Positions 33,405-36,991 of a stretch of DNA of 64,000 nucleotides are shown in pieces. How positions within the stretch are numbered: position 1 is the stretch's first letter; the number at the start of each line of letters is the position of its first letter. A program made the translations under genes and the position numbers. Source of the stretch: Streptomyces sp. CB02959 (GTDB lineage: Bacteria > Actinomycetota > Actinomycetes > Streptomycetales > Streptomycetaceae); NCBI RefSeq assembly GCF_002803155.1, contig NZ_NNBP01000013.1:158514-222513 (forward strand). Direction: 5' to 3'. Under the pieces are notes generated by a model. It did no database searches. It worked only from the letters and a program-made list of their open reading frames with translations, and was not told the origin of the DNA.

Positions 33405-33790
33405 TCACGCTGCCAGCGCGGTGGAGGATTCTGCCTGGTGATCGGCGGTGTGCTGGTCGAGCCTGGCCGGCAGATCGTTCAGGCCGGAGGTGTGAACTTC
33501 CACTGGAACTGCTGTGCCGTGGCGTTGTAGCGGTCTTCGAAGGCTCGGAGCCGGTCCCCGACGTGGGTCAGGTCGGTGAAGTCGTTGGGTGAGACGACCT
33601 TGCGCTGCACGACGGAGAAGTAGACCTCCACCTGGTTCAACCATGAAGCGTGCACGGGGGGGACCATCACCGCATTCGGGAACGCCGCGGCCAACCGGTC
33701 GGCGGCCTTCTGGCCGCGGTGGGAGGAGCCGTTGCCCACGATCCAGAACACCCGCTTGGCACTGGCGTAGGGATCCTGGAGGATGCCCTG
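33405..33790 (-). pseudogene. IS630-family transposase C-terminal remnant
   Basis: Only the C-terminal catalytic part is left: DPYASAKRVFWIVGNGSSHR, then HASWLNQVEVYFSVVQRKVV. In functional relatives the second catalytic Asp sits in VDNGSSHRG, whereas here it is Gly. A frameshift near 33487 splits the tail: one frame stops after WKFTPPA, and another continues SGLNDLPARLDQHTADHQAE to the true end at 33405. The N-terminus is lost at a breakpoint around 33790. It is not functional. Confidence 0.85.
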
Positions 33791-33905
33791 CTACCCACCG
33801 GCAGCCCAACAAGCACCCCCGCAGACGCGCTCGACTGCGCCTGCCGACTCCACCTCGCCGCCCTCGACACCTGACCACACGCCAGCCACAGCACCGCCTC
33901 CCACG

Positions 33906-33939
33906 CCAACCCCCGAAGGACAACCGAGCCGACCACCAA
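33906..33939 (+). repeat. Repeat motif copy A (intact)
   Basis: This 34-bp copy has outer blocks CAACCCCCGAAGGAC and GAGCCGACCACCAAG that recur at 34664-34681 and 36127-36146, where the second copy is split by an insertion element. Weaker similarity extends ~50 bp upstream in both copies. What the motif belongs to is not recognised. Confidence 0.8.
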
Positions 33940-33988
33940 GTCACTGGCATCGGGCATGAATCCGTGTGTCCAGGTTTCCGGGGTCACC

Positions 33989-34531: not shown

Positions 34532-34663
34532 GCCGCGGACAGTAGCACGCTGATCATTCGGCTCGGGCTTCACCCTCTACCTCGCCGGCAACGACAAGTA
34601 GTACCTCGCCAACCTCGGGCACCTGAGCGGACCAGACACCAGGCACCACACCGGCTCCGGAGT

Positions 34664-34681
34664 CAACCCCCGAAGGACTTA
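34664..34681 (+). repeat. Repeat motif copy B, left part
   Basis: CAACCCCCGAAGGACTTA abuts the left end of the insertion element. Its final TTA is the target-site duplication. Confidence 0.8.
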
Positions 34682-34699
34682 CGACCTTGGGGGCAATTG
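34682..34699 (+). repeat. Left terminal inverted repeat of the insertion element
   Basis: These 18 bases are the exact reverse complement of 36109-36126. Confidence 0.92.
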
Positions 34700-34857
34700 A
34701 GGAGGTGAGTCATATCCTCTGATCGATCTTGCTGTCGTGCTGGCAGCCGGGCGTCTCGTCGTGAGGATCGCGGCGGGTCCTCCATCGCGAGTCATGCTTG
34801 GCCGCCGATGGGGCCCGTGGAGGAACCAGTCGGGTGGGTGCAGGCGTCCTGAGGGGC

Positions 34858-35391
34858 ATGAAACAAGGTGTCCGACTGCGTGAGGCGACCGCCGAGGACG
34901 CCGACGTCCTTGCCGACGTGCACACCCGGACCCGGACCGCGTACTACACCGCGGGCGGCATGCCCGAGGAGGAACTCGCCGACCCGAGTGCATGGGGCGA
35001 ACGGCGCGACGCCTGGACGAGGGTGCTGGCCGCGCCGGCGCGCGCCACGCTGGTCGCGGAAGACTTGGACGGGACGGTGGTCGGGCTGCTTGCTGCCGGG
35101 CCACCGCACCACGAAGACCTGGACTCCTCGACGTACTACGAGCTGTACCAGATCGGGGTACTGGCGCACGCCTGGGGGCGCGGGGTGGGTGGGGCTCTGC
35201 ACCGGGAGTTCGTTGCGCTGGCCGCGGCCGCCGGCTGCGCCGAGGGTGTGCTGGAGTGCTGGGCGTCCAACACCCGTGCGCAGCGTTTCTACGCCCGAAA
35301 TGGGTGGCGGCCGGACGGAGTGCGCTGTCCAGGACCGCTGGACTGTGACTACGTTCGGTTGCGGCTGGAGCTCGTATCGCACAGCTTCTGA
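34858..35391 (+). CDS. GNAT N-acetyltransferase (element passenger)
   Basis: The 177-residue protein has the GNAT fold: RLREATAEDADVLADVHTRT at the start, a central VVGLLAAGP strand, and the acetyl-CoA loop YQIGVLAHAWGRGVGGALHR (Q/RxxGxG/A as RGVGG). The motif-B end is SNTRAQRFYARNGW. The substrate is unknown; relatives acetylate small amines, antibiotics or proteins. It lies wholly inside the inverted repeats of the insertion element, in the same direction as the transposase, and so travels as cargo. ATG 34858 is preferred; GTG 34834 sits nearer a GGAGG and is possible. Confidence 0.85.
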   Translation: MKQGVRLREATAEDADVLADVHTRTRTAYYTAGGMPEEELADPSAWGERRDAWTRVLAAPARATLVAEDLDGTVVGLLAAGPPHHEDLDSSTYYELYQIGVLAHAWGRGVGGALHREFVALAAAAGCAEGVLECWASNTRAQRFYARNGWRPDGVRCPGPLDCDYVRLRLELVSHSF

Positions 35392-35436
35392 GCGAGGCTG
35401 ACGCAATGTCAGAGTCGGGCGGCACGATCGGGAGAT

Positions 35437-36066
35437 GTGACTGCTGCCCTGGATCGTGTCGCCCTGTCCCATCACGCCTTCACTGGTGTGACACGCCAAC
35501 ACTTCGCCGACCTGATAGTCCAGTTGGCGACACCCTGGGAGGCGGCGCGGGAGTCGGATCGGGCCGAGTGGCGTGGGGGTCTTCGGAAGCGCCTGGCCGG
35601 GGCGGGACGCAAGGTGAAGCTGGTGTTCACCGACCGGCTGCTGGTCACGCTGATCTGCCTGCGTCACCAGCTGCCGCACGCCGCGTTGGCGGATCTGTAC
35701 GGGGTGGACCGCTCCACCGTCTCGGCGGCGGTGCGGGAGATACGGTTCCTGCTCGCGGCCCGCGGCTTCGCCGTCCCCGACCAGATCAGCGCGCCGCCGA
35801 AGAAGCCCGGCGAGGATGCTTGCGAAGGCGAACACCGGGCCTGGCGGGAGGCCAAGCGACGGCAGTCCTCGGTGAGGATCTGCATCGAGCACACCAACGC
35901 CGAGCTGAAGAAGTGGCGCCCGCTGCAGCGATACACCGGACGCCGCGAGAGCTACGGAGAAACCCACGCCGCGATCGCCTCCCTCGTCTCCGACCGCTCC
36001 GTCAGGCGCGCCACTCGCCGCAGGACCAGCACCGCGCTCGTGCCCGTCCGCACCAACACCTGCTGA
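35437..36066 (+). pseudogene. IS5-family transposase lacking its central catalytic region
   Basis: The N-terminal region is intact (SHHAFTGVTRQHFADLIVQL, then the HTH ALADLYGVDRSTVSAAVREI). So is the C-terminal region (WREAKRRQSSVRICIEHTNA, then LQRYTGRRESYGETHAAIAS). The frame jumps from LLAARGFAVP straight to DQISAPPKKPG. In full-length relatives these segments are separated by roughly 90-100 residues containing the two catalytic Asp of the DDE triad. Only the Glu region (EHTNAE) remains. The 209-codon frame is open but cannot encode an active nuclease. It may still bind the element ends. Confidence 0.82.
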
Positions 36067-36108
36067 CTCATCCATCAGCCGAAACCCCAGGCCAATCTGC
36101 CCCGACCC

Positions 36109-36126
36109 CAATTGCCCCCAAGGTCG
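36109..36126 (+). repeat. Right terminal inverted repeat of the insertion element
   Basis: These 18 bases are the exact reverse complement of 34682-34699, followed by the TTA duplication. Confidence 0.92.
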
Positions 36127-36146
36127 TTACGGAGCCGACCACCAAG
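36127..36146 (+). repeat. Repeat motif copy B, right part
   Basis: TTACGGAGCCGACCACCAAG continues the motif interrupted by the insertion element. The GAGCCGACCACCAAG block matches copy A exactly. Confidence 0.8.
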
Positions 36147-36211
36147 GAAGGGAGAGGCCGCCGGTCGCCGTCCGCGGCCTGGCCACTCGTCGTCCCGTCA
36201 CCCCTCGCCCG

Positions 36212-36991
36212 TCACCCCTGCTCCGGGTCGGTCAGTGCGGCGGCGGTGGCCCGGGCGAAGGCGTCCGGGTTGTCCAGCATGATGTTGTGTCCGCAGTCCG
36301 GGATCGGGACCACGTCCACCCCGGCCTCGACGAGTGCGGCGGCGCCGGGGAGCGGGCCGTCGGCTGCCGGCAGCAGGTAGGTGCGCGGAACCTTCAGGTC
36401 CAGCAGGAGTTCACGCATGGTGGGCACGGTGCCGCGGGTGAGGTTGACCGCGCTGCGGTGCAGGGCCTCGCGGCCGGCCAGGCGCATGGTGGACCACCAG
36501 TGCGCGCCGACCCGGTCGCGCACCTCCGCCCAGCCGCCGGCGAGGAACTCCGGCTCGGAGTAGCCGGCGATGCCGCTGCTGCCGCCCGCGCCGGGGCGGT
36601 GCGGAATCGGGTCCAGGTTGGCGTCGATCAGCACCAGCCGGGAGACCAACTGCGGGTGCCGGGCGGCCAGGACGATGGCCACCGAGCCGCCCATGCTGTG
36701 GGCGATCAACTGCGCACCGGTGGCCCCCGCCGCGGTCAGGGCGTTGGCGAGGGCGTCGGCGTGGGATTCCAGGGTGTAGTCGAAGTCCGTCGGGCGGTCG
36801 CTGATGCCGTGGCCGAGCAGGTCGACCAGCAGCGAGCGGTGACCGGTCAGCAGCGGATGGACGGCGCTCTCCGTGAAGTAGGCGGGGGAGGTGGAGCCCA
36901 GGCCGTGCAGGTAGACGCGGACCGGCTCCCGGCCCGGCAGTTCGACCCAACGGATCCGGTCACCTTCGGTTGTCACTACGGCGTTGCGCAC
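36212..36991 (-). CDS. Alpha/beta hydrolase
   Basis: The 259-residue protein has a canonical fold: HG oxyanion segment YLHGLGST near residue 28, LLGHGISDRP, the nucleophile elbow AHSMGGS with Ser99, acidic residue in the LIDANLD/LLPAAD region, and His235 in DCGHNIMLDNP. No signal peptide is present. The substrate is unknown; lactonase, esterase and epoxide hydrolase relatives share this layout. It is divergent from a non-coding stretch and unlinked to the MFS gene. Confidence 0.9.
   Translation of the reverse strand: MRNAVVTTEGDRIRWVELPGREPVRVYLHGLGSTSPAYFTESAVHPLLTGHRSLLVDLLGHGISDRPTDFDYTLESHADALANALTAAGATGAQLIAHSMGGSVAIVLAARHPQLVSRLVLIDANLDPIPHRPGAGGSSGIAGYSEPEFLAGGWAEVRDRVGAHWWSTMRLAGREALHRSAVNLTRGTVPTMRELLLDLKVPRTYLLPAADGPLPGAAALVEAGVDVVPIPDCGHNIMLDNPDAFARATAAALTDPEQG

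Follow-up and report, generated by a model that had tools for sequence, protein, structure and literature searches.

The window analysed here is a stretch of 64,000 nucleotides from a Streptomyces genome. In it, a GNAT-type acetyltransferase gene and a shortened transposase frame lie together between two short inverted repeats. This arrangement raises the question of whether the parts form a single mobile unit and, if so, how an acetyltransferase gene came to be inside an insertion sequence (IS). We consider it highly probable that the feature is an internally deleted, non-autonomous, passenger-carrying IS ("transporter IS") belonging to an IS5-type DDE_Tnp_4 group of Streptomyces. Its parts are as follows (positions of the window).

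34650–34681, plus strand: left half of the interrupted target motif; the right half is at 36127–36150.
34679–34681, no strand: left target-site duplication, TTA; a single TTA in the empty sites L189, L190, L191, and L196.
34682–36126, plus strand: whole element, 1445 bp, as against 1794 bp in full-size relatives.
34682–34699, plus strand: left terminal inverted repeat, CGACCTTGGGGGCAATTG; L004, L005, L036, L037, and L162 carry the identical 18-mer at their left end.
34858–35391, plus strand: passenger gene, GNAT N-acetyltransferase of type GNAT-A, 177 aa (PF00583, 1.4e-13).
35437–36066, plus strand: 209-aa remnant of the transposase, with its HTH and C-terminal part but with the centre deleted.
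35774–35782, plus strand: scar of the deletion, with TCCCCGACC present once; in L005 and L162 it occurs twice, at a spacing of 348 bp.
36109–36126, minus strand: right terminal inverted repeat, the exact reverse complement of CGACCTTGGGGGCAATTG (direct reading and repeat search).
36127–36129, no strand: right target-site duplication, TTA (direct reading and empty sites).

The order on the plus strand is left repeat, GNAT gene, transposase frame, and right repeat. By direct reading, the terminal repeats are complementary at 18 of 18 positions, and the coordinates given for these perfect repeats in an earlier note on this DNA were right to the base. A repeat search returned slightly longer arms (34681–34702 and 36106–36127; 22 nt, 95% complementary).

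We examined the target site using a query in which the two flanks were joined at one TTA (34603–34681 plus 36130–36197). The starting point was a weak 30-nt match from a left-flank search. The joined query matched 66 of 179 Streptomyces genomes, the window's own included, and 23 plasmid records; many matches spanned the junction and others lay on one side only. Ten loci were read base by base. Four of them (L189, L190, L191, and L196) were uninterrupted with a single TTA at the junction, and six (L192–L195, L197, and L186) had a different triplet there, as did the window's own second motif copy at 33852–33940 (77% match). The single TTA of the empty sites indicates that insertion in the window duplicated TTA. 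The proposed 3-bp duplication was thus supported, both TTA copies being present around the element and one in empty sites elsewhere, and the contrary case, that TTA and the repeats are fixed ancestral sequence, did not hold, as TTA is single in the empty sites. No site with both neighbouring genes and no element was detected among the 41 genomes of the left-flank search. The right-flank gene encodes a widespread hydrolase, for which the listed matches start close to the stop codon of that gene. None of the GNAT-A copies lay in a clearly interrupted gene.

The target itself is a motif of about 60 bp. It recurs in many Streptomyces genomes, several of which have opposite-orientation pairs within about 4 kb, and possibly represents one end of a further mobile element. 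The motif copy at 33852–33940 is near an IS630-type transposase fragment (33479–33751). Immediately to the right of the element, an alpha/beta hydrolase gene (36212–36991) shares its family with the L120 passenger (genome G189), with an 83% DNA match.

The same GNAT and ends recur, in an element of 1794 bp, at four further Streptomyces loci, so that the full-length relative with identical ends and cargo foreseen in the earlier note does exist. The plasmid DNA search gave two records covering the whole query: L004 on the NBC_00053 plasmid (flanks TAA/TTA, transposase frame without a stop) and L005 on the NBC_01471 plasmid (TTA/TTA, one stop in the transposase frame). A scan of genome contigs gave L036, L037, and L038; its GNAT query was the overlapping +2 frame at 34874–35388, by which distant relatives are under-found. 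L036, in MspMP-M5, has TAA/TAA flanks, a right repeat matching at 17 of 18 positions, and a transposase frame without a stop. L162, from genome G478, came from the order-level transposase search and has TAA/TAA flanks and a transposase frame reported to be without a stop. The frame is therefore open in three of the four full-size relatives (L004, L036, and L162). L037 is truncated, with the left end, GNAT, and 140 transposase codons present. The arrangement of GNAT and transposase without flanking repeats was never seen among these loci; the truncated L037 has the left repeat only.

The flanks of the window element, L004, L005, L036, and L162, compared over up to 1.5 kb per side, showed no similarity between loci, and the sole match was that of the two flanks of L036 to each other. 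The passenger regions of L004 and L162 were 99.6% identical despite the unrelated flanks. Because the same GNAT and ends occur at five loci with unrelated flanks, the comparison indicates that the GNAT-bearing unit has moved and that the passenger moves with the element. In the proposed mechanism, the full-size form (left repeat, GNAT, transposase, right repeat) would insert at TTA/TAA and duplicate the target, and its transposase would move the whole unit, GNAT included. We infer the action of the transposase on these ends, cross-mobilisation, and a benefit from the GNAT.

Some details fit this mechanism less well. The flanks of L004 are unequal (TAA/TTA), as are those of several plain copies, and a faithful 3-bp duplication would not predict unequal triplets without later recombination or mutation. 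In addition, L005 has a stop in its transposase frame and L037 is incomplete. One TAA and one TTA flank were seen at L004, L112, L140, L144, L148, L151, L153, and L160, with repeats matching at 17 or 18 of 18 positions. Unequal triplets may reflect recombination between copies or the handling of the target's middle base.

Transposase relatives at E ≤ 1e-60 were present in 81 of 392 Streptomyces genomes, in 29 of 197 genomes of the order (two of six genera; this sample overlaps the Streptomyces one), and on 53 plasmid records. We read 94 loci (70 and then 24), a non-random set chosen mainly for long matches. Among the first 70, 42 had an inverted pair matching at 13 or more of 18 positions with equal TTA/TAA flanks; controls for which equal flanks were required reached at most 11 of 18 (reversed) and 10 of 18 (direct orientation). 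These 42 comprised 22 plain elements of 1034–1107 bp, with 109–123 bp before the transposase match, and 20 elements with 548–2234 bp there. The other 28 loci of the first set had no equal-flank pair, 12 of them being without usable ends, as were 12 of the 24 in the second set. Together with L004, L112, L115, and L122, which have unequal or off-consensus flanks, 11 elements from the second set, and the window element, the 20 made up 36 passenger-size elements. Two were dropped: L156, a doubtful case of 3160 bp, and L118, in which no gene could be recognised.

The remaining 34 elements, the window's included, carry 23 passenger kinds between the left repeat and the transposase, 20 of them in elements with equal TTA/TAA flanks. 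Six kinds recur, with ends, in at least two genomes. GNAT-A was present in five elements; a pentapeptide-repeat membrane protein in three elements from three genomes (L093, L102, and L167, all with TAA/TAA flanks); alpha/beta hydrolase A in three; and GNAT-F, GrpB, and a MarR regulator with an unknown protein in two each, the last in the window's own genome (contig C8) and on plasmid pS1D4-14.1. The other kinds are NIPSNAP, a membrane protein without a Pfam match (L088), a HAD hydrolase with GNAT-B, hydrolase B, a cold-shock protein, an AraC regulator with a Cass2/GyrI-like domain (L123), GNAT-E, ASCH, PadR, a glyoxalase-annotated gene without a Pfam match, a PNPOx-type flavoprotein, three kinds of unknown protein, GNAT-C (L115; flanks TAG/TAA, repeats 14 of 18), GNAT-D (L122; CAA/TAA, 15 of 18), and GNAT-G (L172; TTA/TAA, 13 of 18). 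GNAT-C, GNAT-D, and GNAT-G are known solely from elements with unequal or off-consensus flanks. As chance partners also reached 13–14 of 18 in a search without the flank rule, L115 is the weakest case.

Seven kinds include a GNAT, and these are mutually dissimilar, the closest two being 34% identical. The genome of the window has 112 PF00583 matches, about 1% of its genes if some 9000 are assumed. Seven of 23 kinds with a GNAT corresponds to a binomial probability of 7e-9 at a background of 1.2% and 4e-6 at 3%; for the firmer kinds (4 of 20), the values are 9e-5 and 0.003. Part of this excess may reflect gene size, as small genes fit the slot better. The expectation that a GNAT passenger would be unusual for an IS5-type element thus failed: this one slot is used by 23 passenger kinds, of which seven include a GNAT.

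In quick transposase trees with SH-aLRT supports only, seven changes are required to explain the passenger and plain labels, six being the minimum by the starred branches; for this reason, we conclude that passengers were gained or lost repeatedly. A clade of ten passenger elements with eight kinds, one of them degraded, had a support of 88 in the first tree and was not recovered in the second. Broken-frame rows lay on very long branches, L090 in the first tree and L175 in the second, and L090 was left out of the second tree for that reason. Taken by these sequence comparisons, the elements look like a gene-ferrying IS group rather than a one-off.

Several further copies were observed. The second element of the window's own genome (contig C8, 81289–83319; L090, 1290–3320) carries the MarR regulator, an unknown 153-aa protein, and a broken transposase. 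Its passenger pair has 96% DNA identity to the pair in the L177 element, which has TTA/TTA flanks and lies on plasmid pS1D4-14.1. At L097 (1554–1745, genome G166) there is a MITE-like unit of about 190 bp with the group's repeats at both ends and unequal flanks; it is similar solely to the right-end part of the element. Genome G478 has three transposase copies of equal score (L163, L164, and L165), 77% to that of L004, at three sites, and no repeat pair with TTA/TAA flanks was found at any of the three.

How a gene enters the slot was addressed by comparing the outer left ends of the elements with their own right ends. In L087, L088, and L180, the right-end sequence is found again in inverted form at the outer left end, where it extends past the repeat, over 97, 104, and about 48 nt, respectively. 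None of 500 letter shuffles reached the score in any of the three, and windows within the passenger scored 17–19 versus 104, 188, and 59. In L087 and L088, the inverted copy extends into the 3' coding end of the transposase, and the same left-end stretches match the right ends of many other elements. L088 (15 of 18) and L180 (16 of 18) also retain an inner copy of the left repeat, behind a TAA at −123, its position in plain elements. L185 and L132, which share a passenger, show a match of 22–24 nt set apart from the repeat (0 and 1 of 500 shuffles), and L131 and L089 were marginal (4 and 6 of 500). In the direct orientation, comparison of the outer left ends with their own leaders gave no clear case.

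These ends suggest a compound origin, in which the element would be the remnant of a compound transposon whose second IS was cut down to its end, and the passenger slot of the group would have arisen likewise. This reading concerns the origin of the element, not its structure. It is favoured by the inverted right-end copies at the outer left ends of L087, L088, and L180 and by the inner left repeat retained behind TAA in L088 and L180. The inner repeat, however, also makes a plausible plain element, so that these two may be a plain IS beside a solo end, and only three clear cases emerged among the 35 other elements tested. For the window type, the similarity stops at the repeat arms: no inverted right end was detected beyond them, and shuffles did as well in 327 of 500 trials for the window and 245 of 500 for L004. 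An origin of the window's left end from an inverted right end was therefore rejected. On balance, we give a compound origin a little under an even chance, and for elements other than L087, L088, and L180, the window type included, we can offer the capture route only as an inference.

For the passenger-carrying IS itself, the capture model would run as follows. A gene beside a plain IS would be trapped when a second, inverted copy landed on its far side, and the pair would move on its two outward right ends. The second copy would then shrink to its terminus, leaving an end, the gene, the transposase, and the right end. Passengers would be retained for host use and spread on chromosomes and plasmids. 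It is conceivable, with a probability that we put just short of one half, that this IS5-type group of Streptomyces is a general system of single-gene capture and exchange, with integron-like spread and no integrase, whose passengers are retained for host use.

The window copy differs from the full-size form in its transposase. It is 349 bp shorter: the 5' leader lacks one base and the transposase 348 bp. The latter loss corresponds to 116 codons and leaves an open frame of 209 aa. The remnant matches HTH_Tnp_4 and part of DDE_Tnp_4, and 116 codons are missing relative to full-length relatives, which bears out the description of a GNAT gene followed by a transposase frame without its central DDE part. 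Compared with L004, the lost segment contains LRIDGTE and GRMHDQT, which we take to hold the first two acidic sites of the DDE region of IS5-type transposases; NAELKKW, with its E, is retained. Because these two presumed catalytic acidic residues are lost, the copy is most likely non-autonomous, as the earlier note proposed, and the existence of the 1794-bp relatives agrees with its derivation from a full-length element. A direct repeat is found at the breakpoints, of 9 bp (TCCCCGACC) in L005 and L162 and of 7 bp in L004. A deletion at this short direct repeat probably removed the 116 codons in the lineage of the window. Against such a deletion, a mismatch breaks up the repeat in the closest relative, L036 (8 of 9 bases matching). 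The transposase had been called precisely shortened; it is shortened in frame, but its breakpoints coincide with a short direct repeat.

The deleted copy would be mobile only where a cognate transposase was supplied. Full-size copies, the supposed source, occur in other strains, and no intact cognate transposase was found in the window's genome at E ≤ 1e-60 (81 contigs; 5 of 51 and 11 of 51 first-look candidates scored). At this threshold, the sole relative listed there is on contig C8, and its frame is broken. On these scored candidates, we rejected the idea that the genome also houses an active cognate IS; a transposase donor in it is nevertheless conceivable. A search with the 18-mer, allowing up to two mismatches, matched 45 of 392 genomes, chance matches included, and the reversed control also matched.

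The remnant protein, with its HTH present and its catalytic centre gone, could have been retained in frame as a repressor of related elements, a role with which the in-frame loss of 116 codons and the open 209-aa frame would agree. We regard this role as very improbable, since one in three deletions is in frame by chance, just one such copy is known, and no other element with the window's ends was seen in this genome.

The GNAT frame, in contrast to the transposase, is intact in the window copy, and the gene is presumably useful to the host. Its best start is the ATG at 34858, giving 177 aa and a stop. The GNAT-A passengers of L004, L005, L036, and L037 have 90–94% aa identity to that of the window. 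The dN/dS ratio was 0.27–0.59 over ten GNAT-A pairs and 0.30–0.38 for the four pairs with the window, values that indicate purifying selection on the gene. GNATs without IS ends were found at L038 (83% aa identity to the window) and L099 (70%), and the DNA similarity of L038 begins 15 bp ahead of the start codon and ends with the stop codon. These IS-free copies fit the capture of a ribosome-binding site together with the ORF. No resistance-family model scored above its cut-off; five NCBIfam models matched, all far below theirs, including rimI (32.6 of 86.4 bits) and ArsN1a (18.6 of 170). The PDB relatives are five sequences, the best at 2.8e-6, all named just acetyltransferases. That the GNAT adjoins a decayed IS by chance, between fortuitous repeats and with no mobile unit, is extremely improbable: GNAT genes are common, as the 112 PF00583 matches of this genome attest, and exist without an IS at L038 and L099, but recurrence of the same GNAT, ends, and order at five loci with unrelated flanks rules the idea out, and the empty sites with a single TTA and the orientation controls of at most 11 of 18 also oppose it.

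The supposed oddity, the passenger, is common in this IS group, and this is the more interesting result. Passenger-carrying ISs have been described but treated as unusual, and here a passenger slot is common in one Streptomyces group. The group, with its possible capture intermediates, opens to study the entry of genes into ISs, the recurrence of GNATs, and the traffic of small detoxification or regulatory genes between antibiotic-producing bacteria. The annotation of the plasmid records examined treats passenger and transposase as independent genes and marks no element, so that passengers of this kind can easily pass for ordinary genes.

DDE_Tnp_4 is typical of IS5-like transposases. The full-length L004 transposase matched PF13359 (DDE_Tnp_4, 1.7e-19) and PF13613 (HTH_Tnp_4, 1.1e-11); the NCBIfam IS5 model NF033581 matched the window remnant at 0.0019, far below its cut-off. 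By its Pfam domains, short terminal repeats, and TTA/TAA duplication, the group can be assigned to the IS5 type, and it may already be known in ISfinder. A literature search confined to open-licence papers, with ISfinder outside its scope, did not find this group under passengers in Streptomyces or IS5 ISs or passengers with GNATs, and the accessible parts of PMC11092175 and PMC7371123 hold no pointer to it.

Transporter ISs (tISs) were first described for the IS1595 family, and some mobile insertion cassettes (MICs) are without a transposase gene altogether. L004, L036, and L162 each consist of a single IS with an unrelated passenger inside its repeats, as defines a tIS. The window copy has IS ends, a passenger, and no functional transposase, as defines a MIC, with a transposase-derived frame still present. 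As far as the part available to us goes, PMC3129680 describes tISs as IS copies with passenger genes unrelated to transposition and also mentions MICs; the case here differs in being an IS5-type group in Streptomyces with many passengers. QnrD, another pentapeptide protein, is linked to MICs in the part consulted of PMC3913671.

An actinobacterial IS5-family element with TTA (TAA) duplications, as in the window group, is IS1237 (ISLxx6) of Leifsonia xyli, according to the portion available of PMC2516522. It differs in its length of 798–899 bp and its repeats, GAGGTGGTTTCAG... (PMC2516522), a comparison of ends and size and not of transposases. The main text of PMC2516522 does not use the word "passenger". 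Like integron cassettes, the group presents many alternative small genes (GNATs, regulators, and hydrolases) in one slot, and the L123 passenger matches Pfam Cass2, "integron-associated effector binding protein". Unlike them, it has a DDE transposase and terminal repeats, no site-specific integrase, and one or two genes per element.

The closest parallel to the architecture is IS231/MIC231 of the IS4 family in the Bacillus cereus group, where passenger DNA likewise lies between the left repeat and the transposase, as the accessible part of PMC2266710 reports. Variable element size, non-autonomous derivatives, and a distribution mostly within one host group are shared features (PMC2266710, same part); the HTH_Tnp_4/DDE_Tnp_4 transposase in place of an IS4 one and the host are not. 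In that part, the 2008 paper (PMC2266710) states that no other IS family had shown such modularity, possibly for want of a systematic search. Judged from its sequence, the architecture of the window group matches that of transporter ISs and of IS231/MIC231, in another IS family.
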